A stretch of DNA of 64,000 bases from Gemmatimonas groenlandica (GTDB taxonomy: Bacteria > Gemmatimonadota > Gemmatimonadetes > Gemmatimonadales > Gemmatimonadaceae). Positions within the stretch are counted from its first letter, which is position 1. Each line of letters opens with the position of its first letter. Shown here piece by piece: positions 38,890 to 53,521 of the stretch. The position numbers and the translations under genes were made by a program. The stretch spans positions 2,108,001-2,172,000 of the forward strand of contig NZ_CP053085.1 in assembly GCF_013004105.1 (NCBI RefSeq), in the 5' to 3' direction. The notes beneath the pieces are model-generated. The model was not told the origin of the DNA and did not search any database. It saw nothing but the letters and a program-made list of their open reading frames with translations.

Positions 38890-40395
38890 GTGCTCGACCA
38901 CCCTCTTCCCGACACTGTGCGCTGCTTCGCCTTCCATCACCTGCTTCCGCCCCTCCGGCGCGAGGCGCCGCTATTCCTGCTGGCCGCCGCCCTGCTCGGG
39001 GCATGCCGTGGTGCGGTCGCGCCTTCTGCGCAACCTCCGGTGCCAAGTCGGTCCGTAGCGACCTCGACGACGCTCGGGGCCATGCCCGCGGCCTGTGGGC
39101 CGGTGGCGGGAGCCGTGTCCGCGTCACTGGCCTCGACTCCGGTGACCAACCCGCTCGTGACCTTCGACAGCGCCTGGAGCATTATCGGGCGCACCCATTG
39201 GGACACGACCTACAACGGGGTAAACTGGGCGGCCCTTCGGGCGGAGCTGCGACCGAAAGCGGCGGCCGCCACGACGACCGGCGAGTTGCGGGCAGTGCTT
39301 TCCGACATGGTCGCCCGCCTCAAACAGTCGCACTTTTCGATCATCCCGCGCGAGATCGCCGACGCATCTGGGAGTGGCTCAGGGAGCGGCGCGAACTCCG
39401 CTCCAGACCATAGCGGTTCCATCGGCGCCGAGGTGCGGTATCTCGACGGTACGATCGTGATTGCGCAGATCGATCGCGACGGTCCGGCGGCCCGGGCGGG
39501 CGTGCGTACTGGCTGGCGGGTGCAGTCGGTGAATGGGTGCCCGATGTCCGCGCGACTGTCCCGCATGCCGAAAGAGCCCGACGCGCGCCGTGAGGCACTC
39601 ACCGCCTACGCCATTGCCACTCAGGCTTTGGCTGGCGCCGTGGGCGACAGCGCGACGGTGGTTTTCGCCGACGAGCGCGGACGTGAGCGGACGGTCCGCG
39701 TGGCGCGCGCTCCGGAGCCTGGGGCGGTCGCGAAGTTCGGCAATCTGCCCGCCATGAACGCCCAGCTCTCGTTCGACCGGGTGACGTCGGCCGGCAAGAC
39801 CGTCGGCATCATCCGGTTCAACATCTGGATGCCGATTCTGTCGCCCCAGTTCGACGCGGCGGTCGATGCGCTGCGCGACGCCGACGCCATCGTGCTGGAC
39901 GTCCGGGGCAACTTCGGCGGTGTGGGTGGCATGTCGATGGGCATTGCCGGCCATTTCCTCGACAGCACGCGGACGATCGGCACGATGATCCAGCGGGGGG
40001 CTACGCTCAAGTTCGTGGCGAATCCGCGCCGGGTGAACACGCGTGCGCAGGGTGTGTCGCCGTACGCGGGCCCACTGGCGATCGTGGTGGACGAACTGTC
40101 CATCAGCACGACCGAGATCTTTGCCGGCGGCATGCAGGCGCTCGGCCGCGCGCAGGTGTTCGGGGTACAAACGTCGGGTCAAGCGCTGCCCTCGGTGCCC
40201 GAGCGGCTGCCGAACGGCGACATCTTGTATCACGCGATTGCCGACTTTGTAAACCCGTTCGGCAAGCCGCTGGAAGGGGCGGGCGTGACTCCCGACCGGG
40301 TGGTTCCGCTCACCCGCCAGTCGTTGCTGGCAGGGCGCGATCCGGCGCTGGATGCGGCGATCGCGTGGGCGGTTTCGCAGAAGGTGAGACAGTAA
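38890..40395 (+). CDS. S41-family peptidase-like lipoprotein
   Basis: Exported 501-residue protein with a signal ending in the lipobox LLGAC (Cys about 39). It has a tail-specific protease-like layout: an N-terminal helical part, a degenerate PDZ-like section (IVIAQIDRDGPAARAGVRTGWRVQSVNG, here GPAARAGVRTGWRVQSVNG), and the S41 core with DAIVLDVRGNFGG and the catalytic-Ser segment DELSISTTEIFAGG. The later motif where C-terminal processing proteases carry a Lys reads GVQTSGQALP instead, so activity needs another base or is lost. The start is GTG 38890. Confidence 0.8.
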   Translation: MLDHPLPDTVRCFAFHHLLPPLRREAPLFLLAAALLGACRGAVAPSAQPPVPSRSVATSTTLGAMPAACGPVAGAVSASLASTPVTNPLVTFDSAWSIIGRTHWDTTYNGVNWAALRAELRPKAAAATTTGELRAVLSDMVARLKQSHFSIIPREIADASGSGSGSGANSAPDHSGSIGAEVRYLDGTIVIAQIDRDGPAARAGVRTGWRVQSVNGCPMSARLSRMPKEPDARREALTAYAIATQALAGAVGDSATVVFADERGRERTVRVARAPEPGAVAKFGNLPAMNAQLSFDRVTSAGKTVGIIRFNIWMPILSPQFDAAVDALRDADAIVLDVRGNFGGVGGMSMGIAGHFLDSTRTIGTMIQRGATLKFVANPRRVNTRAQGVSPYAGPLAIVVDELSISTTEIFAGGMQALGRAQVFGVQTSGQALPSVPERLPNGDILYHAIADFVNPFGKPLEGAGVTPDRVVPLTRQSLLAGRDPALDAAIAWAVSQKVRQ

Positions 40396-40409
40396 CGGCG
40401 AAGTAGGCC

Positions 40410-40451
40410 GTAGGGAGTAGGGAGTAGGGAGTAGGGAGTACAGAGTACGGA
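40410..40451 (+). repeat. Tandem heptamer GTAGGGA
   Basis: Four exact GTAGGGA units (40410-40437) followed by the degenerate GTACAGA and GTACGGA, starting 15 nt after the S41 stop. The array looks like the heptanucleotide repeats known from other GC-rich or cyanobacterial genomes. A related pair occurs at 12699-12724. Confidence 0.85.
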
Positions 40452-40543
40452 GAAGGGCGTGTTAGAGTAGGGCGTGCAGCGTTGTTGCTTTTGTTGGACT
40501 CATCCAGTTCGCTTTCCACCTCCCGCGTTTGGAGATGCGTGAC

Positions 40544-41299
40544 ATGAAGACTGTACGTTCGTTTGCGGTCGCTGCGGCGGCCCTGGTGTTATCGTCAGCC
40601 TCGCTGTCGGCGCAGGCTGTGCCGTCGGCCACCGAGGTGCTCGCGAAGTACGTGGCCGCCATCGGTGGCAAGGACGCGATCATGAAGATCACGTCGCTCA
40701 AGCAGACATCGACGATGCAGGTGCCGGCGGTGGGTTTGACCGCCGAGGTCGAGGCGTATCAGGCGGCGCCGAACAAGATGGCCACGAAGAGCACGATCCC
40801 GGGCGTTGGCGAAATGCTGCAGGGCACGAATGGCGTGGTGGCTTGGGATGCGAATCCCATGCAGGGGCCGCGCTTGCTGGCGGACAAGGAACTGGCCCAG
40901 ACGCTCGAAGGCGCCGACTTCTACGGCAACATGCTGTACCCGGTGGACCGCTTCTCGAAGCTGGAGAATCTCGGCGTCGCCGACTTCAATGGCGAGAAGA
41001 GCTACAAGATCAAGCTCGTCCGCAAGGATTCGGGGCGCGAGACCACGCAGTATTTCTCGGTCGCGACGGGGCTCATCGTAGGCGCGGAAACGGTGCAGGA
41101 GTCGCAGATGGGGACGATGCAGGTATCGTCCACGCTTTCCGACTACAAGGAATTCGGCGGCGTGAAGTTCCCGACGAAGACCGAAGTGAACATGGGTGCC
41201 AACAAGTTGATCATGACGATCACCAACGTGGTGATCAACGGGGCGCCGGCGGCGGCGTTCGAGATCCCTGATGCCGTCAAGCCGTTGATCAAGAAGTGA
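40544..41299 (+). CDS. LolA-like exported protein
   Basis: Periplasmic 251-residue protein with a signal peptide (about 1-22, ending SLSAQA). The mature part is mostly beta: repeated 8-12 residue strands such as MQVPAVGLTAEVEAYQ, KSYKIKLVRKDSG and TQYFSVATGLIVGAETV, the pattern of the LolA/LppX/outer membrane lipoprotein-sorting family. AAIGGKDAIMKITSLKQTST is a common opening in that group. The ATG at 40544 (MKTVRS) is chosen because it starts the signal peptide; GGAG lies about 10 nt upstream. It may bind lipid or lipoprotein; no partner is known. It is separated from the T2SS operon by a promoter. Confidence 0.7.
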   Translation: MKTVRSFAVAAAALVLSSASLSAQAVPSATEVLAKYVAAIGGKDAIMKITSLKQTSTMQVPAVGLTAEVEAYQAAPNKMATKSTIPGVGEMLQGTNGVVAWDANPMQGPRLLADKELAQTLEGADFYGNMLYPVDRFSKLENLGVADFNGEKSYKIKLVRKDSGRETTQYFSVATGLIVGAETVQESQMGTMQVSSTLSDYKEFGGVKFPTKTEVNMGANKLIMTITNVVINGAPAAAFEIPDAVKPLIKK

Positions 41300-41364: not shown

Positions 41365-41796
41365 GTGTGTGCCCAGCTGCCCCATCCCCGAGCGGGACTG
41401 ACATTGCTCGAACTCTTGGTCGTGCTCGTGATTCTCGCGATCACCACGGCCATTGTGCCGTTGGCGTGGCGGTCGCCGCGCGCCACCGATGAGAGCGCGC
41501 TCGACCGGCTGACCCAGTCGGCGCGGCGTGAAGCCATCCGTCGCGGCGAAGAATTGCGTCTGCGCGTGGACCTCGATGGCGCGTGGGTACTGGCGGCACG
41601 TGAGGGCACCGACGTTCTCGAGACGGGGCGGATCGCCGCGCCCTCGGCAGCGATAGCGCTTCGGGTCGATGCTCTGGGCACCTGTCGCCCCGGTAGCGAC
41701 ATGGCCGCCATCGGCGACGCGCCATCCGGCGTATCGTTCGACATGCTCAGCTGCCGCTTCCTCCCGCTGGCCGCTTCCGCGGCATCGACGCCGTGA
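41365..41796 (+). CDS. gspH: Minor pseudopilin, GspH-like
   Basis: First gene of the T2SS operon. The 143-residue product has a prepilin leader ending in Gly before LTLLELLVVLVILAI, the helix that enters the pseudopilus, with Glu at +5. The globular part is small and has two cysteines (CRPGS, LSCRF). The GspH/FimT fold is suggested by length and position before gspI. The GTG start at 41365 has no Shine-Dalgarno. It cannot be gspG: it lacks the Asp/Gly-rich calcium loop typical of the major pseudopilin. Confidence 0.75.
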   Translation: MCAQLPHPRAGLTLLELLVVLVILAITTAIVPLAWRSPRATDESALDRLTQSARREAIRRGEELRLRVDLDGAWVLAAREGTDVLETGRIAAPSAAIALRVDALGTCRPGSDMAAIGDAPSGVSFDMLSCRFLPLAASAASTP

Positions 41797-42086
41797 CGTT
41801 GCTCGAGTCGATCATCGCCAGCCTGCTGCTCGCGGTCACCGCCGTGGTCTGTCTCGATGCGACCCGTGGTGCCGCGGCCCTGCAGCGGAAGAGCGCCGAC
41901 TGGACACAGGCGGTGGCGCGAGCGGAGGCTGAACTGGCGACGGTGAGCAGTGGCGGCCTCCCGTCCAGCACGACGCGCGTGACGCGCCGTCCATGGCGCG
42001 ATGGCCTGGAGCTGCTCGAGATCGATATGCCGATGGCGGACGGAGCGAGCTTCCGGCTCACGCGCCTTGTGGAACGCGCGCCATGA
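41793..42086 (+). CDS. gspI: Minor pseudopilin, GspI-like
   Basis: Short pseudopilin (97 residues). The N terminus VTLLESIIASLLLAVTAVV is the hydrophobic helix, with Glu5 and almost no leader. No Gly cleavage site precedes it in this frame, so the GTG start at 41793 makes a leaderless pseudopilin or the true start lies elsewhere. The C-terminal part is beta-like and short. It overlaps gspH and gspJ by 4 nt each (GTGA and ATGA). Confidence 0.7.
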   Translation: MTLLESIIASLLLAVTAVVCLDATRGAAALQRKSADWTQAVARAEAELATVSSGGLPSSTTRVTRRPWRDGLELLEIDMPMADGASFRLTRLVERAP

Positions 42087-42703
42087 TGCGCTCGCAGGTG
42101 CGCTCGCAGATGCGCTCGCGCCGCGGCTTCACGCTGCTCGAAGTGATCGTGGCAATCACGGTGACGGGCCTCTCGTTGACCACGGCCGGTATGGCGTTAT
42201 CTGCCGCCCGCAATACGGCCGCCCGTATCCAGGCGCACGAGGCGCGTACCGAAGCGGACAGTCGCGTGCGAGCCCTGCTCACCGATATGCTGCGCCACGC
42301 GCCGCTGTCCGAACAGGTCGACGACCCCTTGCTCGTGGTCGATCGCGCGAGCGGTTCGCCGGTGCTTCGCTTTCTCTCCACGGGCGTTCGTGAGCCGTAC
42401 GGCACCGGTGCCGTGTGGCAGGTCGAGGTCGCCCTGCGCGACTCGACGCTCGTGGTGCGCGCGACACCGACGGGACGTGATGTTGGCGCGTCACCGCTCG
42501 TCGCGACGCTATCGCCCGTGACGCAGTGGGATGTGCGGCTGCTCGAACATGGCACGGCGATGTCATCACCGTCGTGGCGCCCCGACTGGCCGATCGCACA
42601 GGACCGCCCCCGCGCCATCGAACTCGCGTGGAGCCGCGCGTCCGACCGTAGCGCCATGCCACTGCGCGTCGTGCTCGCTCCCTTGGATCGGCCGCGGTTA
42701 TGA
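42083..42703 (+). CDS. gspJ: Minor pseudopilin, GspJ-like
   Basis: 206-residue pseudopilin with a basic leader and the prepilin motif RRGFTLLEVIVAITV; cleavage after Gly. The N terminus is encoded by three 12-nt repeats, giving MRSQVRSQMRSR with two ATGs and a GTG in frame, so the exact start is uncertain. GspJ is the pseudopilin tip partner of GspI and GspK. It overlaps the gspI stop as ATGATG. Confidence 0.75.
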   Translation: MMRSQVRSQMRSRRGFTLLEVIVAITVTGLSLTTAGMALSAARNTAARIQAHEARTEADSRVRALLTDMLRHAPLSEQVDDPLLVVDRASGSPVLRFLSTGVREPYGTGAVWQVEVALRDSTLVVRATPTGRDVGASPLVATLSPVTQWDVRLLEHGTAMSSPSWRPDWPIAQDRPRAIELAWSRASDRSAMPLRVVLAPLDRPRL

Positions 42704-43557
42704 GCACCGCCCGGAATCATCGGGGGCGCCGCGGGGCGGCGCTGGTGGTGGCACTGGTCACGATTGCGGTGTTGGCCAGCGTTACGGCCATCGCGAGCAG
42801 CCAGGCACGGCGGGCCGCGTCGGTCGTCGACAATCGACGTTCACAGATGACGGCGCGAGCCATGGCGGAGAGCGGCGTGCTCGCCGCACGCGCGCAGATC
42901 GAAGCGAGCCTCCGTAACGCGGGCGCAGATTCGGCGCAGGTCGATCGGGTGTTCGACGCACTGACCACCGATGGCGCATCCGCGAGGCAGGACACCGTCG
43001 GCGACGGCGTGTTCGCGACGATCGTGGTCGACGTCAGTGCGCGGCTCGACGTGAACACAGCGGGCGCGGACGGTCTGCAGCAACTGTTGGCGACGGTGGC
43101 TCCACCTAGCGAGGCCCGCCGGGTGGCGGACGCCATCGAGGCGCACGTACGCGGCGATGACGTCGAGTCGACGGGCGAGAACCGGGATGCGATCCAGCAG
43201 CGCCGCCAACGTGATTCGGTGGCCGCTGTGATGCTCGGCCGAGCGCCGACGTCACGCGTCATGCAGCCGTTCACGTCGCTCGACGAACTGCTCACAGTGC
43301 CCGGTATGCAGGGCGCGTGGCTCGACGCGCTGGCCGCCGATCTCACGGTCGATGGTGACGGCCGAGTGAATCGCCGCTCCGCCTCACGCCGGGTGCTCGC
43401 GGCCGCCACCGGGACGCTGGTCGATCGGCCGTCCCGACTGTTGGTGGTCTCGCGCGGCTGGCGTCGCGATCATGTACTGACCCGCGAGATTCAGGCGGTC
43501 TTCGACGTGAGCGGCGCGGAACTCCGATTGGTGCGGTGGCGGGAGCAGGATCGATGA
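42700..43557 (+). CDS. gspK: Minor pseudopilin, GspK-like
   Basis: Large tip pseudopilin (285 residues). The N-terminal RRGAALVVALVTIAVLASV is the helix, without the Glu5 of other pseudopilins, the hallmark of GspK. The globular domain includes LDVNTAGADGLQQLL, a helix-hairpin-helix-like stretch typical of GspK, and FTSLDELLTVPGM. The start ATG 42700 overlaps gspJ by 4 nt. Confidence 0.85.
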   Translation: MSTARNHRGRRGAALVVALVTIAVLASVTAIASSQARRAASVVDNRRSQMTARAMAESGVLAARAQIEASLRNAGADSAQVDRVFDALTTDGASARQDTVGDGVFATIVVDVSARLDVNTAGADGLQQLLATVAPPSEARRVADAIEAHVRGDDVESTGENRDAIQQRRQRDSVAAVMLGRAPTSRVMQPFTSLDELLTVPGMQGAWLDALAADLTVDGDGRVNRRSASRRVLAAATGTLVDRPSRLLVVSRGWRRDHVLTREIQAVFDVSGAELRLVRWREQDR

Positions 43558-44690
43558 GCCGCCCCCTGTGCCTGCTGCTGGACGGCGAATTCGTGTCCGC
43601 GCTGCCTCGTGACGGGGCAGCCACGGCGACTCGCGTGGCGTGGCGCCCCGAGGCACCGTTGCCGATGGTCGAGTCGCTGCGTTCGGCGTTTGGCGCACCC
43701 ACGGGACTTGTCGTCATCGTCGGACTCGCATTTCTGGAGATCGCCGAACCACAGCTACCGCCGGTGCCGAACGACGCGCGCGTGCGAATGCTGCAGCGAG
43801 ACAGCGACCGCTATTTCGCACTGCGCGAGCCGGCGGCGGTGGCCACTGACGGAAGCGTCGCCTTTGCCATGTCGAGCGCGCTGCTGACCTCGTGGCTGGA
43901 CGCACTATCGGCCTGGAGCCCGGTGCGCGCGGTCGTGACGGTGGCGGCGGCCGCCGCACTTGGCGGTCATGACGGCCGATGGACGGCAGATGCGGGCGAT
44001 GGGTCGACGGGTCAGCTCACGATTCGCGAGGGGCGAGTGCAGAGCGCCCGACGCCTGCGTGGCGGTGGTGACGCGGCTGAGCGTCCACTGACGATCGCCG
44101 AGTTGACTGGGGGTGCGTGGCGGGCCGCAGCGGGGACGCTGGACCTGCAGCTGCTTGATTCGGCCATGCGCGAACGTGCGCAGCGGCAGCGCGCGCGACG
44201 TTGGTGGCAGTCAGCCGTATTTGCCGCGGCAGCGCTGGTGCTGTTGGCGTGGAGCGTCGACCGCTGGCGCGAACGGCAGCTGGTCGCGCTCCAGCAGGAG
44301 GCACAGACGCTGGAACAGTCCACGGCCGGTGCGCGGGCGGCGCAGCAGCGACTGCTGCGCGCGCAGGGTGAACAGACGGCGATTGCCGCCGCGGATCGTC
44401 GTGCCGTGCTCGCCGACGCACCACCAGCGGTGCTGGCGAGGCTGGGCGAGCTCCTCCCGCGCGATGCGTTCATCCAGCGCCTCGAGTGGAACGGCACCGA
44501 GTGGCGCATCGACGGGAGCGCGAACGACGCCGCGGCCTTGGTACCGCTGCTCGATGCCGATGCGCAGCTCGTCGGCGTACGCGCGGCTGCCCCGAGCATG
44601 CGCTTCCTCGAGAACGGCCGCTCACGCAGCTCGTTCTCGATCGTCTTCCAGACGCTCGGCGCGCCGGCCCCGACGCGAGGTGGCCAATGA
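43554..44690 (+). CDS. gspL: GspL-like inner membrane assembly protein
   Basis: 378-residue protein with a cytoplasmic actin-like N-terminal half (about 1-220), one transmembrane helix (about 222-240, VFAAAALVLLAWSV) and a periplasmic C-terminal ferredoxin-like part. Gspl links the ATPase GspE to the membrane platform. Domain identity rests on layout and operon position, since the N-terminal sequence is divergent. ATG 43554 overlaps gspK by 4 nt. Confidence 0.7.
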   Translation: MSRPLCLLLDGEFVSALPRDGAATATRVAWRPEAPLPMVESLRSAFGAPTGLVVIVGLAFLEIAEPQLPPVPNDARVRMLQRDSDRYFALREPAAVATDGSVAFAMSSALLTSWLDALSAWSPVRAVVTVAAAAALGGHDGRWTADAGDGSTGQLTIREGRVQSARRLRGGGDAAERPLTIAELTGGAWRAAAGTLDLQLLDSAMRERAQRQRARRWWQSAVFAAAALVLLAWSVDRWRERQLVALQQEAQTLEQSTAGARAAQQRLLRAQGEQTAIAAADRRAVLADAPPAVLARLGELLPRDAFIQRLEWNGTEWRIDGSANDAAALVPLLDADAQLVGVRAAAPSMRFLENGRSRSSFSIVFQTLGAPAPTRGGQ

Positions 44691-45259
44691 CGGCCGTGTC
44701 CGCAGCGCCACGGTCGCCGTCGCGCGAGCGTCGCGTCGTGATCGGCGGCATTGTCGTGCTTGCCCTGTCGCTGTTCGCGACCTACGGCGTCGTTCCGGCC
44801 GTCACGCGGTGGAGCGCGCGCGAGATGCAGCTCGATCGCGTGCGGGCGCAGGTGTCGCACCTGAAGGGCCTGCAGTTGCATGCGAGCGAGCTCGAAACGG
44901 CGGCTGCGCTCTCGGAAGGACGACTCGCCGGCGGCGTGCGGCGGGTCATTCACGCCCGGTCCAGCGCGCTGGGGGCGAGCGCGCTGCAGACGTTGCTGCA
45001 AGGCGCCGCCGATGCGAGTGGACTCGTGGTCGATCGAGTCGACGTCGGCCCCGATCTCACGAGCGAGGGCGATCTGACCGCTACGCTGTCGGCCTATGGC
45101 GACATTCACGGACTGGCCGCACTGCTGGCGCAGCTGGCCAGCGCACCGCGCGTCACCGCGGTGGAGCGGCTCACCGTGCAGATCAATCCGGCGCTGCGCG
45201 GCGCACCCGATGTGCTACGCGTGACGCTTGGCGTGCGCGCGCCGATGGTGATGGAATGA
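44687..45259 (+). CDS. gspM: GspM-like assembly protein
   Basis: 190-residue bitopic protein. A single transmembrane helix (about 20-40, VVIGGIVVLALSLFATYGVV) follows a short basic cytoplasmic part, then a coiled-coil (about 45-80) and a ferredoxin-like beta-alpha domain. This is the GspM/PilO layout and the partner of the gspL product just upstream. ATG 44687 overlaps gspL by 4 nt. Confidence 0.65.
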   Translation: MTAVSAAPRSPSRERRVVIGGIVVLALSLFATYGVVPAVTRWSAREMQLDRVRAQVSHLKGLQLHASELETAAALSEGRLAGGVRRVIHARSSALGASALQTLLQGAADASGLVVDRVDVGPDLTSEGDLTATLSAYGDIHGLAALLAQLASAPRVTAVERLTVQINPALRGAPDVLRVTLGVRAPMVME

Positions 45260-45831
45260 GCGCGACGAACAGATGGCGTGGGTATCAGGCGCTGGATGTG
45301 CTCTCCGCCGTGTGCGGTGTGATCGCGCTGGTCATGCTGCTACTGCCGGCATCGACGACCGTGGCACCCGACAGCCTGCGGGTCGCCACGGCCAGCAGCG
45401 CGTCAGTTGGCCCCACGATGGACGCGGCGCCCTCTACGGGAACCGTGGTCGATTCACTCGCACACGCCATCGTGCGCACCAACGCGTTCAGTGCCAGTCG
45501 TCAGGAACCCCGGGCGCGCTTTGTGGCGCCTGGGTCTGAACCTGCACCGGCGGCGCCGATATACGAGCCGGCAGGCAACGCATTCGCCGTATCGGACATC
45601 GATGCCGGGCCGAAGTTGTTCGGCATCGTGTCAGTCGGTGGGACCCCGCGCGCGTTGCTGCAGCTGCGGACCTCGGCCGAGCCGCCACGTCTGCTCGGTG
45701 TGGGAGAATCGTTCGGCGGTGTGCGCGTCGTGCGTATTGCCGGTGATCGCGTCGTGATTTCAAGCTCCAGCGGGACGCGCACTCTGCGTCTATCCCGCGT
45801 CGTGTCGGATTCCAGCGAGAACGTGCCGTGA
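45256..45831 (+). CDS. GspC/PilP-like periplasmic linker
   Basis: 191-residue protein with one membrane helix (about 14-31, VLSAVCGVIALVMLLLPA), a disordered stretch and a small beta domain (about 105-180, LFGIVSVGGTPRALLQL; LGVGESFGGVRVVRIAGDRV), the HR domain of GspC and PilP that contacts the secretin N0 domain. No PDZ domain follows, so it is a short GspC. Position just before gspD supports this. ATG 45256. Confidence 0.65.
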   Translation: MSATNRWRGYQALDVLSAVCGVIALVMLLLPASTTVAPDSLRVATASSASVGPTMDAAPSTGTVVDSLAHAIVRTNAFSASRQEPRARFVAPGSEPAPAAPIYEPAGNAFAVSDIDAGPKLFGIVSVGGTPRALLQLRTSAEPPRLLGVGESFGGVRVVRIAGDRVVISSSSGTRTLRLSRVVSDSSENVP

Positions 45832-47633
45832 TCGTCCTACCGCTTCCACGACGTTGGCGCTTCGCCGCGCTTGGCGTATTGCTTGGTCCCGTGACGCTTT
45901 CGCTCGGCGGCGAAGCGCTGCAGGCGCAGGCGCCAGTGACCGCGTCGCGCACCAACACGCTCGATTTCGCCAACGCGAAACTCGCCGACGTGATCCGCAC
46001 CCTGGCCACCATGCTGGGGCGCACCGTGTTGATGAGCGACATTCCCGATGTGCGCGTCACGTTCGCAACGCCGGCGCCGCTGAATACGGCGGAGCTCGAG
46101 CGCATTCTCGAATCGCTACTGGAATCGCATGAACTGATGCTGGTGCCAAGTGGTACGGTGGCCCAAGTGCTACCTACCGCCAAGGCGCCGGCCACCGGAT
46201 CGCTACGCACCGGCTTCGCGTTTCCCGATCCGCCGCCGCTCGGCCTGGTGACGCAGCTCGTACCGCTGCAATCGATCCGGGCCGATGAGGGAGCGGATGC
46301 GCTGCGGGCGCTGATGGGCAAGGGGGCGCGCATCGAGACGGTCACGCGATCGAACGCCCTGCTGATCACCGATCGCGGCGCCAACGTGGCCCGCTATCTC
46401 GAGCTGCTCCGCACGCTCGACGCCGCACCGGCAGGAGAGTCAGGGCTGCGCACCTATGTGGTGAATCTCAAGTATGCGGCGGCCGACAATCTGGCCGGTG
46501 CCTTGGGGCAGTTGTACGGCGCGCAGGTGGCGAACACCGGCGGTGGCTCGCTGGCCGATCGGTCGCTGTCGCGGGCGCTCGACTCGTTTCGCGCCCGCGA
46601 GGCGGAGACGTTCCGGTCACGCAACTCGGGCGGCATGAGTGGCGCGAATGCGATGACGCAGCAGAACAACGCCGCCTCTGCGGGCACGCCGCGCGACTCG
46701 GCCTCGGGACTGCTGGTGGGGCGTACCACCATCGTGGCCAACGCACCCACGAACGCGCTGGTGATCCGTACCGCACCGCCGAACTATCCGTTGCTGCGCG
46801 AAACGATCGACGCGCTCGATACGCGTCCGTCGCAGGTGCTGTTCGAAGTTACGGTGGCCGAGATCGCGCTGGGCCGCGGATCGGAGTTCGGCGTGGACTG
46901 GTCGGCGGTGAACCGGGGCGGCGATGTACAGGCGCAGTTCGGTAACCCGGAGATCCCCGACACCGGATCCACGTCGGCGCTGCTGCGATTGGTGCGCCTC
47001 GATGGCACGGGTGTGCGCGCGCTACTGCGGACGATCGCGTCCACCAGTGATGTGCGCGTGCTGTCCACGCCGGAGATCATCGCCGCCAACAACCGCGAGG
47101 CCTCGATCCTGGTGGGCAGCAAGGTGCCGTTCGTGGCATCGACGCGACTCGGCAATGACGTCTCGATCGATCGCGCGATTCAATATCAAGACGTGGGCAC
47201 GAAGCTGTCGATCATTCCGACGATCAACGACGACGGCTACATCTCGGTGCAGCTGCTGCAAGAGGTCAGTTCGCTCACGTCGCAGACCGTGGCCGCGGCG
47301 CAGAGTGCGCCGGTGATCTCCACGCGTGAGGCCTCAACGCGGGCGATTCTTCGTGACGGCCAGACGGTCGTGATCGCGGGGTTGATCGGCGAGACGCGGC
47401 AGACGCTCGAGCAAGGCATCCCGCTGCTCAAGGACATCCCGTTTTTCGGCGCGCTGTTCAAGCGGCAGTCCACCACGCGGCAGCGCACCGAGCTCGCGAT
47501 CTTCGTGACGCCGTATCTCGTGCGCTCCGACGCCGATGCCGATGCGATCCGTGAGCGCGTGAAGAAGCGCTTGGAAGACCGCTCACCGGGCGCACTCGAT
47601 GGCACGCCGCTCACCCGGAAGCCGCCCGCATGA
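45828..47633 (+). CDS. gspD: Type II secretion secretin GspD
   Basis: Outer-membrane secretin (601 residues). Signal peptide (about 1-36), N0 (FANAKLADVIRTLATMLGRTVL, about 46-67 in part LADVIRTLATMLGR), N1/N2-type repeats with VTRSNALLITDRG and AAADNLAGALGQLYGA, and a C-terminal secretin domain with VLSTPEIIAANNREASILVG and GQTVVIAGLIGET then LAIFVTPYLV. An Asn/Arg/Ala-rich insertion (about 240-300) lies inside an N domain. It is shorter than classical GspD (about 650), lacking one N repeat. The GTG start overlaps gspC-like by 4 nt. Confidence 0.92.
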   Translation: MIVLPLPRRWRFAALGVLLGPVTLSLGGEALQAQAPVTASRTNTLDFANAKLADVIRTLATMLGRTVLMSDIPDVRVTFATPAPLNTAELERILESLLESHELMLVPSGTVAQVLPTAKAPATGSLRTGFAFPDPPPLGLVTQLVPLQSIRADEGADALRALMGKGARIETVTRSNALLITDRGANVARYLELLRTLDAAPAGESGLRTYVVNLKYAAADNLAGALGQLYGAQVANTGGGSLADRSLSRALDSFRAREAETFRSRNSGGMSGANAMTQQNNAASAGTPRDSASGLLVGRTTIVANAPTNALVIRTAPPNYPLLRETIDALDTRPSQVLFEVTVAEIALGRGSEFGVDWSAVNRGGDVQAQFGNPEIPDTGSTSALLRLVRLDGTGVRALLRTIASTSDVRVLSTPEIIAANNREASILVGSKVPFVASTRLGNDVSIDRAIQYQDVGTKLSIIPTINDDGYISVQLLQEVSSLTSQTVAAAQSAPVISTREASTRAILRDGQTVVIAGLIGETRQTLEQGIPLLKDIPFFGALFKRQSTTRQRTELAIFVTPYLVRSDADADAIRERVKKRLEDRSPGALDGTPLTRKPPA

Positions 47634-49177
47634 GCGGGGATGCCCGCAAGAGCGGGGATGCCCGTGACCTGCGGGCGGCGGCGGCCGGTGACCTGGCCGC
47701 GCGCGTGCCGGCGCGGTGGCTGGAGGAGCATGCGGTGTTGCCGCTCGAGCTCGACAGCGGCACGCTCCTAGTCGCGGCCGACGGCGTGATCGCCCCGATC
47801 GTGCAAGACGCGCTGGAGCGCGCCTTCAGCGCCGAGGTGCGCGTCGTGCTGCACGGCGCCGGCGACATTCGGGCCGCGATCCTGTCGGCACCGCGCGAGT
47901 CCGTGCGCTCAACGGGCTCCGACACCAACTCCCCGCCGAGCGGCGGCGATCTGCTGCGCGGTGAACTCACGGAATCGCTGGACGATCTGCGCGCGCTCGC
48001 CTCGCGCGAGCCGGTAATTCAGGTGGTGAACGCGATGCTCGCCGAGGCGTCGCGTGCGGGGGCCAGCGACGTCCACGTGGAGTCGCGCCCCGACGGCTTG
48101 CGCGTGCGCATGCGACTCGACGGCGTGTTGCGTGACGCGCAACTGTTGGGCACCGAGTTCCGCTCGGCGGTCATCTCGCGGCTCAAGGTGCTCGCCGGTT
48201 TGGATATCGCCGAACGCCGTCTGCCGCAGGATGGTCGCGCGCGCGTCCGGGTGGGCGACCGTGAACTCGACGTCCGCGTCTCCACGCTGCCCGCGCTGCA
48301 TGGTGAGAGTGTCGTGCTGCGGTTGCTGGATGGCGGTCAGGCCGAGCAGCCCTCGTCGCTCGAGTCGCTCGGCCTCAGCACCGACGTGCTGACACGGTGG
48401 CGTGCCCTGTTGCAGCGGGCGTCGGGACTGCTGCTCGTGAGCGGTCCGACGGGCTCGGGCAAGACCACGACGCTGTACGCCGCGCTCCGTGAGCGCAGCA
48501 CACCCGGCGTAAAGGTGGTCACGGTGGAAGACCCGGTCGAGTACCGACTCGACGGCATCGTGCAGCTGCCCGTGAACGCGCGCGCCGGTTTCGGGTTTCC
48601 CAACGCGTTGCGGGCGATTCTCCGGCACGATCCTGACGTGATTCTGGTCGGAGAAATGCGCGACGCCGAAACGGCCGACATCGCCGTGCAGGCTGCGCTC
48701 ACGGGCCATTTGGTCTTGAGCACCGTGCACACGACCGATGCCACCGCCGCGTTGGCGCGATTGCAGGAGATGGGTGTGCCGCCCTACTTGCTGAGCGCCA
48801 CACTGCAGGGCGTGCTGGCGCAGCGGTTGGTCCGTCGGGTGTGTACGCAGTGCGGGGTATGGCGCGCGCTGACGGCGCCGGAAGAGGTTCGCGTCGCCGA
48901 GGCGCGCGTGCCGATCACGGAGCTTCGCGCCGGCGCGGGGTGCGCGCAGTGCGCGGGCACCGGCTATCGCGGTCGCGTGGCGATCGCCGAGTTGCTCGTG
49001 CTCGACGATGCGCTGCGCAGCGCGTTCACGCAGGGCGCATCGTTGGTGGAGTTGCGGGCGATGGTCCGTGCGCGTGGTGTGCGTTCGTTGCGCGAGGATG
49101 GCTGGCGTTGCGTCGCCGCCGGCGAGACGACGATCGACGAAGTCGTGCGCATGGTGAGCGAGGACGACGACGCGTGA
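47630..49177 (+). CDS. gspE: T2SS assembly ATPase GspE
   Basis: Cytoplasmic hexameric ATPase (515 residues) that powers pseudopilus growth. It has Walker A GPTGSGKTTTLYAAL (about 272-286), the Asp box, Walker B-like HDPDVILVGEMRDAETADIAV, HLVLSTVHTTDA, and the C4 zinc motif CTQCG...CAQCAGTGYRGR. The N terminus carries a duplicated SGDAR (18-nt repeat at about 47634-47666). ATG 47630 overlaps gspD by 4 nt. Confidence 0.95.
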   Translation: MSGDARKSGDARDLRAAAAGDLAARVPARWLEEHAVLPLELDSGTLLVAADGVIAPIVQDALERAFSAEVRVVLHGAGDIRAAILSAPRESVRSTGSDTNSPPSGGDLLRGELTESLDDLRALASREPVIQVVNAMLAEASRAGASDVHVESRPDGLRVRMRLDGVLRDAQLLGTEFRSAVISRLKVLAGLDIAERRLPQDGRARVRVGDRELDVRVSTLPALHGESVVLRLLDGGQAEQPSSLESLGLSTDVLTRWRALLQRASGLLLVSGPTGSGKTTTLYAALRERSTPGVKVVTVEDPVEYRLDGIVQLPVNARAGFGFPNALRAILRHDPDVILVGEMRDAETADIAVQAALTGHLVLSTVHTTDATAALARLQEMGVPPYLLSATLQGVLAQRLVRRVCTQCGVWRALTAPEEVRVAEARVPITELRAGAGCAQCAGTGYRGRVAIAELLVLDDALRSAFTQGASLVELRAMVRARGVRSLREDGWRCVAAGETTIDEVVRMVSEDDDA

Positions 49178-50451
49178 GTGAGCGCCCGGCATCATCGGCG
49201 GGAACGACACGGTGGCGCTATCAGGCGGCCGATGCGCAGGGCGCGATGTCGCGCGGTGAGCTCGAGGCGGTCTCGGCGGAGGCGGCCGTGGACCAACTGC
49301 GCCGTCGCGCGTTGTGGGTGATCGATCTCGAGCCGACGTCGGAGGCGGCGGCCGCTGCGGCAACTGTAGCGAGCGGGGCCGGCACGTCGACAGCCGGATT
49401 CCTGGATCGGCTGTCACGCCGGACCAGCGACCGCGAGGAAGCGCTGGCGATCCTGACGCGGTCGGTCGCGACGTTGCTGGAATCGGGCGTGCCGCTGGAG
49501 CGTGCCCTCGCGTTCGCGGCGAGCGGCGAGACGGACGTACGATGGCAACAGATCTTTGCCGGGCTCCAAGCGGCCGTCACACGCGGCGAATCGCTTTCCG
49601 AGGCGGCGGCCCGCGTTGACGCGCTTCCGCGCGCCTACGCCCCTCTGCTGGCCGCGGCCGAGGCATCGGGCAGCTTGGCCGCCACGTTCGCTCGGCTGGC
49701 GGATGATCTCGAGGCGCGGAGTCAGCTGCGCGCCCGCGTGCGTGCCGCCCTGGTGTATCCCGCGCTCTTGGCGTTGGCGTCGACGGTGGGCACCGTCGTT
49801 ATTCTGGTGGTCGTGGTGCCCCGCTTCGCCGATCTGATCGCCGGCGCCGGCGGCACGGTACCGGCCAGTACCAGACTGCTGATCGGGCTGAGTGCCCTGC
49901 TCTCGCGCTTCGGCTGGCTGCTGGCGGTGGCCCTGGTGCTGGCAGGCACCGCTGTGCGCCAGTCGCTTCAGGATGTCTCGCGGCGGAGAGCCTGGCATGC
50001 CGCCCGTTTGCGGTGGCCGCTGGTCGGCCGATTCGAACGTGAGCAGGCCGCGGCCGGCTACCTCAGTACGCTGGCAGTGGCGCTCGAATCCGGGGTGCCT
50101 CTCCTGCGCGCGATGGCGCTGGCCCGTGGCACCGTGGGCAACGACGCCCTCGCGGAACGGTTGGCCATCGCGGAATCCGCCGTGAGAGACGGAGGCTCGG
50201 TCTCCCAGGCGCTGGCCGGCTCGCTCACGTCGCTCGCGACGCGGCTTCTCGAAGCCGGCGAGCAGGGCGGCGCGCTGGCCCCATTGGCCCGCCGAGCCGC
50301 GACGGCCGCCGGCGAGCAGGTCCAGCGGGTAATCACCAGTGCCGTGGCGTTGATCGAGCCGGTGATGATCCTCGGCTTTGGCGGCATCGTAGGCTTCGTC
50401 GCGCTGGCGCTGCTCCAAGCGATCTACGGGATTAACGCCAGCAGCTTCTGA
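49174..50451 (+). CDS. gspF: T2SS inner membrane platform protein GspF
   Basis: 425-residue polytopic protein, two T2SSF domains. N-terminal cytoplasmic helical domain with LLESGVPLERALAFAA, then three membrane helices (about 190-215, 240-265 and at the C terminus, with VALIEPVMILGFGGIVGFVALALLQAIYG seen as MILGFGGIVGFVALALL). The second repeat has TLAVALESGVPLLRAM. GTG start overlaps gspE by 4 nt. It is the last gene of the operon. Confidence 0.92.
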   Translation: MSERPASSAGTTRWRYQAADAQGAMSRGELEAVSAEAAVDQLRRRALWVIDLEPTSEAAAAAATVASGAGTSTAGFLDRLSRRTSDREEALAILTRSVATLLESGVPLERALAFAASGETDVRWQQIFAGLQAAVTRGESLSEAAARVDALPRAYAPLLAAAEASGSLAATFARLADDLEARSQLRARVRAALVYPALLALASTVGTVVILVVVVPRFADLIAGAGGTVPASTRLLIGLSALLSRFGWLLAVALVLAGTAVRQSLQDVSRRRAWHAARLRWPLVGRFEREQAAAGYLSTLAVALESGVPLLRAMALARGTVGNDALAERLAIAESAVRDGGSVSQALAGSLTSLATRLLEAGEQGGALAPLARRAATAAGEQVQRVITSAVALIEPVMILGFGGIVGFVALALLQAIYGINASSF

Positions 50452-50622: not shown

Positions 50623-52179
50623 ATGTCGACGAACGCTGATCTACCGGAAGCAGTGACCGAGGCCGCGCTCGCCGACGACAGCCGGCCGAGTCGTCGTCGC
50701 TTCTTTACGCTCGGCGCCTCGGCGGCGGTCGGACTGGCTGCCGCACAGACGCTCGAAGCGCAGCGCCCGAAGAGCCGCGGCAGCAGTCCGTTTCCCAACG
50801 GACAGACGTCGAACGCCGCCGCGGATGCATCGGCGGCGTGGGGCGACCCGGTTCTTCGTCTCGTGCGGCGCATCACGATGGGGATGAATCCGGAGGAAGT
50901 CGCGCTCGCCCGTCGGTTGGGATACGCCGGCTATCTCGACTATCAGCTCCGTGCGGCCGCCATCGACGACAGCGCGATCGAGACGATCATCGCGTCGCGC
51001 CTGCCCATGACACAGATGGCGGCGGCGACACTGGCCACGCAGGACGGCAACGAAGTCGCGAACCAGCTCGCCGACGCCACATGGTACCGTGCCGCGTTTT
51101 CGAAGGCACAACTACGCGAGCGGATGGTGGAGTTCTGGACCGATCACTTCACGATCAGTCTGAACAAGGTCGGCTATCTCAAGCTGGTCGATGACCGCGA
51201 CGTGATCCGTCCGTTCGCCATGCGGACGTTTCCCGAGCTGTTGCGCGCGACGTCGGAGAGCGGCGCGATGCTGGTGTATCTCGACCAGAATCGTAGTCGC
51301 ACGCCCACGCCGAACCAGAATTACGCGCGCGAGATCATGGAGCTCCACACGCTGGGCGTGGACGGCGGCTATTCGCAGACCGATGTCGCGGAACTCTCGC
51401 GCATTCTTACGGGGTGGACGACCACGGGTCCGGGCATGTTCGCGTTCAACCGCAACTTCCACGACCGCAACGCTAAGACCTTTCTGGGGCGCTCGTTCCC
51501 GGCGATGCTGGCGACGGCGACGGACGTGCAGCTGAAAAGCGAAGGCGATGCGGCGATTCAGATGCTCGTCGCGCATCCGAGCACGGCCGCGTACATCTCG
51601 CTGAAGATGGCGCGCTGGCTGCTGGCGTACGAGCCTCCGCAGGCGGTGGTCGACGCAATGGCCGCGACCTATCTCGCGACGGGCGGCGATATCACGGCCA
51701 TGATCCGTACGATCTTGTCGGGCAAGAACCTGCTGGCGGCGCCGGCCAAGTACAAGCGCCCGTTCCACCTCGCGATCTCCGCGATGCGCGGCATGAGCGC
51801 GTCGGTCGTCAACATCCGCGCGGCCCGTCAGCGCGCCGACCAAATGGGCATGCCCGTCTTCATGTGGGAGCAGCCCAATGGCTATCCCGACCGGGTGGAC
51901 TGGTGGAGCGGCCTCGTGATGTCGCGGTGGTCGTACATGCAGTATCTGTCGACGCAGACGAGCGCGACCACCACCCGCGTGGATTCGGCACCGTTCCGGG
52001 TACCTGACACGGCCGACGGCGTCGTCGCGCAGATTGCGGCACGGATGTACGGCGGCGAGCTCCCACCGGCGCTACGCACGCAGCTGCTCACGTACCTGCG
52101 TGGCGGTACCTACAGTGACGCGCGCGTGCGCGAAACCATCGCGCTCGCGAGCAGCGCGCAGGAGTACCAGTGGTTCTGA
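50623..52179 (+). CDS. DUF1800 family exported protein
   Basis: 518-residue protein of the DUF1800 family, of unknown biochemistry, typically encoded before DUF1501. It has a Tat-type leader (SRRRFFTLGASAAVGL at about 24-39), LVRRITMGMNPEEV, and the family core FWTDHFTISLNK, NQNYAREIMELHTLGVDGGYSQTD, with FHDRNAKTFLGRSF. ATG 50623 is chosen; TTG 50557 lies 66 nt upstream in frame. The DUF1501 gene follows after 31 nt. Export via Tat is inferred from the twin-Arg motif. Confidence 0.85.
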   Translation: MSTNADLPEAVTEAALADDSRPSRRRFFTLGASAAVGLAAAQTLEAQRPKSRGSSPFPNGQTSNAAADASAAWGDPVLRLVRRITMGMNPEEVALARRLGYAGYLDYQLRAAAIDDSAIETIIASRLPMTQMAAATLATQDGNEVANQLADATWYRAAFSKAQLRERMVEFWTDHFTISLNKVGYLKLVDDRDVIRPFAMRTFPELLRATSESGAMLVYLDQNRSRTPTPNQNYAREIMELHTLGVDGGYSQTDVAELSRILTGWTTTGPGMFAFNRNFHDRNAKTFLGRSFPAMLATATDVQLKSEGDAAIQMLVAHPSTAAYISLKMARWLLAYEPPQAVVDAMAATYLATGGDITAMIRTILSGKNLLAAPAKYKRPFHLAISAMRGMSASVVNIRAARQRADQMGMPVFMWEQPNGYPDRVDWWSGLVMSRWSYMQYLSTQTSATTTRVDSAPFRVPDTADGVVAQIAARMYGGELPPALRTQLLTYLRGGTYSDARVRETIALASSAQEYQWF

Positions 52180-52210: not shown

Positions 52211-53521
52211 ATGAGTGATGAATCGACAGAAGACGGGTGCCAGGAATACCAGCAGCTGGCGCGACGCGATTTCCTGACGTTGGCCGGCGGCGTGGGGGTC
52301 AGTGCCTTGCTGCCCACCTGGATTCCCAAGGTCGTGCTGGCGCAGACGTCGAACGGCAGCCGCGACATCATCGTCTCGGTCTTCCTGAGCGGCGGCACCG
52401 ACGGACTCTCGCTGGTGGTGCCGTTCGGCGACCCTGACTACTACACGGGGCGTCCGAACATCGCGGTTCCCCGTCCCGATGCCGCCGGCGCGGGTCCGAA
52501 GGCCGTGGCACTCGACAACTTTTTTGGCTTCTCGCCAGGCATGGCGCCGCTGATGCCGGCGTACACGAATGGCGATTTGCTGGTCGCGCATGCCACCGGC
52601 TCGATCAACAATTCGCGTTCGCACTTCGATGCGCAGCGCTATCTGGAAGTCGGCAAGCCGGCGGACCCGCGCATCAGTGGTGGCTGGCTCGGCCGACATC
52701 TGGCCACCAGCACCCCGATGCGTGCGGATGCGCCGCTGCGCGGGCTCGGGTTCACGTCGGGCTTGCCGCTCACGCTTTCCGGCGGACCGAAGACCCTGCC
52801 GATTCCGAATCCGGCGAACTTCACGATCGGTGGAAGCGGGACGACCGCGACGGCCCGCGCTGATTGGCTGGCCGCCAATCACGCGAGCGCGGTGAATCCC
52901 GTATCGGCGAATGCGCTTGATGCCACGAACACCATCGCGTTGCTGCAGCGCATCAACTTCACCGGATACGCCGCGGCAAATGGCGCGGTCTATCCGACCA
53001 GCGGATTCGGTCAGGCGCTGCGTTCCACCGCGGCGCTGATCAAGGCCGATGTTGGCGTAGAGGCGGTACACGCCTTCAACGGCGGCTGGGATACCCATGC
53101 CACGCAGGGACCGATCGCCACGCTGGACGGTGGCTTCATGCACGGCAAGATGCTCGATCTCGCCAACTCGCTCGCCGCCTTCCACGCAGACCTGATTCAG
53201 GGAACGACCTCGTACGGTGTGACCGTGGTCGTGATCTCCGAATTTGGCCGCAATGCGCGTGAGAACGGCAATCGCGGCACTGACCATGGTCGCGGAAACG
53301 TGGCCTTTGCGATGGGCAAGAAGATCAACGGTGGGCGTGTCCTCACGAACGGCTGGCCCGGATTGGCGCGCGAGAATCTCGAGAACGGGCAGGACCTTCG
53401 CGTTACCCTCGACCATCGCGACATCTTCGCCGAGATCGTCCAGAACCGACTGGGCAACAGCAACCTGTCGGTCGTGTTTCCGGACTATACGCCGCGTTTC
53501 CGCAACGTGACCAAGGCGTAG
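52211..53521 (+). CDS. DUF1501 family exported protein
   Basis: 436-residue protein of the DUF1501 (sulfatase-like fold) family. The Tat leader is ARRDFLTLAGGVGVSALLP (about 17-35). Family marks: VFLSGGTDGLSLVVPFGDPDYY, SHFDAQRYLEVG, GGWDTHATQG and VISEFGRNARENGNRGTDHGRG (here ISEFGRNARENGNRGTDHG), the last two carrying the His/Asp pairs expected of an alkaline-phosphatase-like metal site. ATG 52211 is used. It ends before a strong bidirectional hairpin. Function unknown; exported, perhaps surface-bound hydrolase. Confidence 0.85.
   Translation: MSDESTEDGCQEYQQLARRDFLTLAGGVGVSALLPTWIPKVVLAQTSNGSRDIIVSVFLSGGTDGLSLVVPFGDPDYYTGRPNIAVPRPDAAGAGPKAVALDNFFGFSPGMAPLMPAYTNGDLLVAHATGSINNSRSHFDAQRYLEVGKPADPRISGGWLGRHLATSTPMRADAPLRGLGFTSGLPLTLSGGPKTLPIPNPANFTIGGSGTTATARADWLAANHASAVNPVSANALDATNTIALLQRINFTGYAAANGAVYPTSGFGQALRSTAALIKADVGVEAVHAFNGGWDTHATQGPIATLDGGFMHGKMLDLANSLAAFHADLIQGTTSYGVTVVVISEFGRNARENGNRGTDHGRGNVAFAMGKKINGGRVLTNGWPGLARENLENGQDLRVTLDHRDIFAEIVQNRLGNSNLSVVFPDYTPRFRNVTKA

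Follow-up and report, generated by a model that had tools for sequence, protein, structure and literature searches.

A circularly permuted type II secretion operon in Gemmatimonas groenlandica with a predicted leaderless GspI and a probably replaced major pseudopilin

Gemmatimonas groenlandica is a bacterium of soil and water. We analyzed a stretch of 64,000 nucleotides of its genome (the window), which begins at position 2,108,001 of a single closed contig of 5,179,092 bases and carries ten consecutive genes of a type II secretion system (T2SS) in the order gspH-I-J-K-L-M-C-D-E-F (Table 1). A previous sequence-only reading of this DNA had placed the operon, in this order, at positions 41365-50451, and both the order and the coordinates proved exact; the nine 4-nt overlaps that it had described as ATGA or GTGA, one at each junction, were likewise all recovered from the coordinates. 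Overlaps of this kind are possible at 134 of the 184 operon junctions in relatives and are the rule in these operons, so that nine out of nine would arise by chance with a probability of ~0.06 and are typical of the system. Upstream of the operon (positions 38890-41299), putative S41-type peptidase-like and outer-membrane-lipoprotein-like genes are found, which are syntenic in the genus.

Table 1. Features of the secretion locus and of the associated loci (plain coordinates are positions in the window; those with an L prefix refer to separately extracted loci).
Feature	Position	Strand	Remarks
gspH, minor pseudopilin	41365..41796	+	leader PRAG|LTLLELL; N_methyl and GspH family matches
GTGA overlap gspH/gspI	41793..41796	+	fixes the start of the leaderless GspI
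gspI, minor pseudopilin	41793..42086	+	GTG start is mature +1 (V/M-TLLES); predicted to lack a leader peptide
gspJ, minor pseudopilin	42083..42703	+	leader SRRG|FTLLEV; N_methyl and GspJ matches (weak)
gspK, minor pseudopilin	42700..43557	+	NF037980, 1.9e-15
gspL	43554..44690	+	C-terminal part PilN-like (family search)
gspM, XpsM/PilO-like	44687..45259	+	T2SSM/XpsM matches
gspC, TM helix and HR domain, without PDZ	45256..45831	+	GspC_delta match; HR fold from fused homologue
gspD, secretin	45828..47633	+	N0, N1, one more N domain, secretin (N0 + 2 Secretin_N + secretin)
gspE, ATPase	47630..49177	+	best NCBIfam model GspE, 2e-155, under equivalog cut-off
gspF, platform protein	49174..50451	+	final operon gene; best NCBIfam model GspF, 5e-87, under equivalog cut-off
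DUF1800 protein, twin-arginine motif	50623..52179	+	conserved beside operon; candidate cargo
DUF1501 protein, Tat signal	52211..53521	+	paired with DUF1800; candidate cargo
Zinc-ribbon/TM/SH3 gene	L002:8866-9564		adjoins orphan gspG in the majority of genus genomes that carry it
Orphan gspG	L002:9561-9989		leader residue -1 is Ala, not Gly (RRA|FTLIEV)
Fused gspM-gspC	L116:8871-9857
Fused gspM-gspC	L115:94-1077
Fused gspM-gspC	L118:8835-9824
Fused gspM-gspC	L122:1111-2100
Fused gspM-gspC	L075:9339-10481

The encoded parts are those of a T2SS: a GspD with an N0 domain is present (PF00263, 1.2e-46; N0, 4.2e-7; PDB GspD, 1.5e-68), together with GspE, GspF, GspL, GspM and the minor pseudopilins H to K. 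GspI, which is short and divergent, gave no family match by itself and is alignable across relatives. The system thus resembles the classical T2SS (Gsp/Pul/Out/Eps) in its core parts C-M, with GspG and GspO encoded elsewhere, in the N0 domain of GspD and in the HR domain of GspC, and departs from it in the rotated gene order, the unlinked gspG, a GspC without PDZ domain, a GspD one N domain short and a GspI that appears leaderless.

The window operon does not follow the classical single-operon order C-D-E-F-G-H-I-J-K-L-M. Relatives, which were found by name, belong to the Gemmatimonadota and are in many cases labelled Gemmatimonas or Gemmatimonadaceae; named loci duplicating whole-genome loci were counted once, and the genome counts given below are not independent events. 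Within the genus the operon reads H-I-J-K-L-M-C-D-E-F, and in sister genera H-I-J-K-L-M-C-D-E-F-G (G089, G155, G029, G158, G126 and L123, L125, L128), which is a circular permutation of the classical order, so that the earlier description of a rotated block was literally right. Since the sister genera share the rotated order ending in gspG, this ending is taken as ancestral, and the genus of the window has lost just the final gene. Gemmatimonadales further removed have L-M-C-D-E-F, K-I-J, G and H as blocks that stand apart or run convergently. That the absence of gspG is an artefact of assembly or deletion has a negligible probability, because the genome is a single closed contig and the same gap, with a DUF1800 gene after gspF, is shared by other genomes of the genus, including two further single-contig ones. 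On comparison of these genomes, the rotated order is a stable lineage trait conserved in the family and not a local oddity. We refer below to the window-type system as T2SS-1 and to a second, distinct T2SS of the Gemmatimonadota as T2SS-2. Two genus members (G055 and G078, loci L098 and L099) have no window-type operon and carry T2SS-2 instead; a replacement of T2SS-1 in place by T2SS-2 in these two was considered and dropped, as only the DUF1800 and DUF1501 genes are shared outside the machine genes.

The defining feature of prepilins is a leader cleaved off by a dedicated peptidase. Class III leaders were found on GspG, GspH, GspJ and GspK, leaving GspI as the one pseudopilin without a leader, a departure that we judged to be a lineage trait and no bar to T2SS membership. 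Translated from the start within the GTGA overlap, GspI reads V(M)TLLESII, which is the mature sequence itself. An ATG or GTG occupies mature residue +1 in all 24 distinct loci in which gspI follows gspH (HI-linked loci), and the start lies within the 4-nt gspH/gspI overlap in 20 of these 24. GspIs from the LMCDEF outgroup, from T2SS-2 and from gammaproteobacteria have Gly at position -1, and the leaderless and leader-bearing states separate cleanly on the GspD tree. An upstream start codon was found in 16/16 gammaproteobacterial GspIs scored, half of the control loci having been set aside because of a strand error. A leader could nevertheless arise through a non-standard start codon located 5' of +1 or through a frameshift out of gspH, as might be expected from the description of prepilin leaders as always having Gly or Ala as their last residue (review, PMC10191384) and from the frame in the window, which is open for 32 codons upstream, the stop being 33 codons away and close stops occurring in relatives only. 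Such a leader is very unlikely, given that in eight loci the frame is closed by a stop 3-6 codons before +1 with no ATG, GTG or TTG in between, and that the upstream residues are unrelated even between close relatives while the start codon at +1 is always kept. The invariant start at +1 and the close upstream stops together argue that GspI is leaderless in HI-linked loci. Neither a leaderless pseudopilin nor a T2SS study of Gemmatimonas was found in the literature searched.

Neither gspG nor gspO was detected within the 64-kb window, as the sequence-only reading had noted for the operon, and a genome-wide hunt of the kind it had proposed recovered both functions elsewhere. The genome has a single PF08334 match (1e-38), an orphan gspG with a full GspG domain at C1:975657, which bears out the first of the two alternatives then offered (gspG elsewhere) and leaves no need for the second, a minor pseudopilin in its place; GspH as major pseudopilin was rejected on the same ground. 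A small zinc-ribbon/TM/SH3 gene ends in a 4-nt overlap with the orphan; it was rejected as a general T2SS part, being absent beside operonic gspG. Separation of gspO from the T2SS operon is common, and here the gene at 637 kb encodes a bifunctional prepilin peptidase with A24_N methylase and A24 peptidase domains. A further A24 peptidase is encoded at 4.80 Mb, where another ATPase gene of the T2SSE family, ~5 kb away, presumably belongs to a Tad locus.

Of the 25 genus genomes that have a window-type GspD, 22 carry the orphan gspG (its neighbourhood being covered within 1.5 kb for two of the 22: G365, low-completeness drafts in general), and neither of the two near-complete genomes that have T2SS-2 only does so (G055, G078), their sole gspG sitting in the T2SS-2 operon; this co-occurrence has a Fisher p of 0.03, ignoring the relatedness of the genomes. 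From it we infer that the window operon uses the orphan GspG. The system might conversely have lost its major pseudopilin and rely on GspH, or be decaying, with the orphan serving a type IV pilus or another machine, and in keeping with this gspG lies outside the operon, three draft genomes of the genus with the operon gave no gspG match (G111, G370, G371) and the genome encodes additional pilus-type ATPases of the T2SSE family. This scenario is distinctly unlikely in view of the joint presence of operon and orphan, of the complete PF08334 domain and of the ten operon genes, all of which are open in those sampled genus members whose contigs reach far enough. In one further genome, G079, the operon lies on C2 without gspG, and a T2SS-2-like gspG on a separate 1.04-Mb contig (C4, L097), perhaps a second replicon.

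How the orphan relates to the gspG of the sister genera was addressed by phylogeny and profile comparison. T2SS-2 has the closest kin of the orphan as its GspG and is sometimes found beside the same DUF1800-DUF1501 pair, but differs from the window system in its order G-F-H-I-J-K-L-M-D-E (L098/L099), in a GspD that is ~34% identical and in a GspI with a normal leader. In a GspG tree with a gammaproteobacterial root, the T2SS-1 GspGs encoded within operons cluster in a single clade that contains no orphan (100/99), and the six genus orphans group together (100/99) among the T2SS-2 GspGs (96/88). When T2SS-1 and T2SS-2 profiles are compared, orphan GspGs score 29-43 bits better with the T2SS-2 HMM, leave-one-out controls ranging from -44 to -21 for T2SS-1 and from +12 to +52 for T2SS-2, so that every orphan groups with T2SS-2, outside the range of the T2SS-1 controls. 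These signatures suggest that the pseudopilin was probably replaced by a T2SS-2-type protein and not relocated from the operon. Were the orphan the system's own gspG, moved to a new site, its likeness to T2SS-2 would be convergence or a tree artefact; the protein is short and offers few columns, and AU tests do not reject this reading (p 0.145-0.218), the two-tree test of orphan and T2SS-1 GspG as one clade yielding p 0.145 with 135 columns and an lnL difference of 25, which makes replacement likely, not proven. A move of this kind is nonetheless unlikely, since the best tree and the HMM signature put all orphans with T2SS-2, and G361 combines the operon and an orphan-type gspG with a T2SS-2 that has its own gspG. 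The idea that the orphan is what remains of a T2SS-2 operon at its old site was rejected, as it has no flanks in common with T2SS-2 loci.

The short GspC without PDZ and the GspD lacking one N repeat, both remarked on earlier, were also upheld. Family searches gave no match for a PDZ domain in the window GspC, its HR domain has only a weak sequence match and its GspC family matches are weak as well; compared with solved GspD structures, the window GspD is short of one N domain, its structure model being of low confidence (mean pLDDT 65). The GspDs of L090:9404-10960 and L091:6009-7550 (~515 aa) have lost yet another N domain. In L115, L116 (= L074), L118, L122 and L075, gspM continues into the HR domain of gspC, which has lost the sequence for the GspC membrane helix. 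An AlphaFold2 model of the L116 fusion has a long N-terminal helix and a PilO-like domain, followed by a disordered linker and then a beta-domain, and its halves match solved PilO and ETEC GspC (HR half, TM 0.82). The fused loci lie in three places on the GspD tree (quick support only), and gspM and gspC have thus apparently been fused about three separate times.

Xps/Xcp clusters have a gene order other than that of the window operon. The window GspM matches the XpsM model, which brings the system close to Xps/Xcp-type T2SSs, whereas the leaderless GspI and, in some species, the gspM-gspC fusions set it apart. XpsC and XcpP are GspCs without PDZ domain, as is the window GspC, and XpsC, L and M are reported to form one complex (PMC11981180).

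Downstream of gspF, or of gspG where it is present, a DUF1800-DUF1501 pair follows in 13/13 sampled HI-type genomes (the 13th, G093, placed by contig coordinates) and in many named loci. DUF1800 is absent from all LMCDEF-type loci with enough contig, and the pair also adjoins the T2SS-2 gspG in G055, G078, G184 and G144. A Tat motif is found in DUF1501 in all examples read but one, and in DUF1800 often, being incomplete in some relatives. Earlier work had described the two genes as forming an operon whose DUF1501 product has a Tat motif and for which no function was known (PMC5122149); a link of DUF1800 to T2SS was not encountered in the literature searched. As Tat-exported proteins whose genes accompany two different T2SSs, the two are best read as T2SS cargo, a role that their neighbourhood makes likely.

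Overall, we consider it probable that the circularly permuted operon encodes a complete Gemmatimonadota T2SS with a leaderless GspI, an orphan GspG of T2SS-2 type, a short GspC and GspD, and a cargo pair, suggesting a model in which ribosomes that finish gspH would reinitiate in the GTGA/ATGA overlap and yield GspI in its mature form. Its hydrophobic N-terminal helix would place GspI in the inner membrane without cleavage by the prepilin peptidase, while H, J, K and G would undergo normal cleavage. GspI belongs to the I-J-K tip complex that initiates assembly (review, PMC7248040), and would here join this tip to start the pseudopilus, the orphan GspG polymerising below it, driven by GspE, GspF, GspL and GspM. 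The short GspC, with its HR domain only, would connect GspL and GspM to N0 of the shortened GspD, and Tat would export the DUF1800-DUF1501 pair to the periplasm as the likely cargo. The leader-coding sequence may have been lost as gspI took its position after gspH, or as the overlap between the two genes arose.

In the mitochondrial T2SS, the usual prepilin processing is also in question, no GspO having been found (PMC8134430). That system is eukaryotic and keeps processing-site features in GspG, whereas GspO is present here and GspI alone would skip processing. The chances appear evenly balanced that the whole amounts to a lineage-wide hybrid T2SS, in which a GspI born mature, without leader, cleavage or N-methylation by GspO, works with a major subunit from a different T2SS and a dedicated Tat-exported cargo pair.

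The conserved leaderless GspI suggests that not every subunit may need cleavage in order to enter the membrane and serve in the pseudopilus, and it offers a natural system for asking what cleavage and N-methylation are for. The recurrent fusion of gspM to gspC, in which the GspC membrane helix is lost, bears on the stoichiometry of C and M, and the apparent replacement of GspG bears on the interchangeability of pseudopilins. The conserved DUF1800-DUF1501 neighbour, in turn, gives two families of unknown function a testable role.
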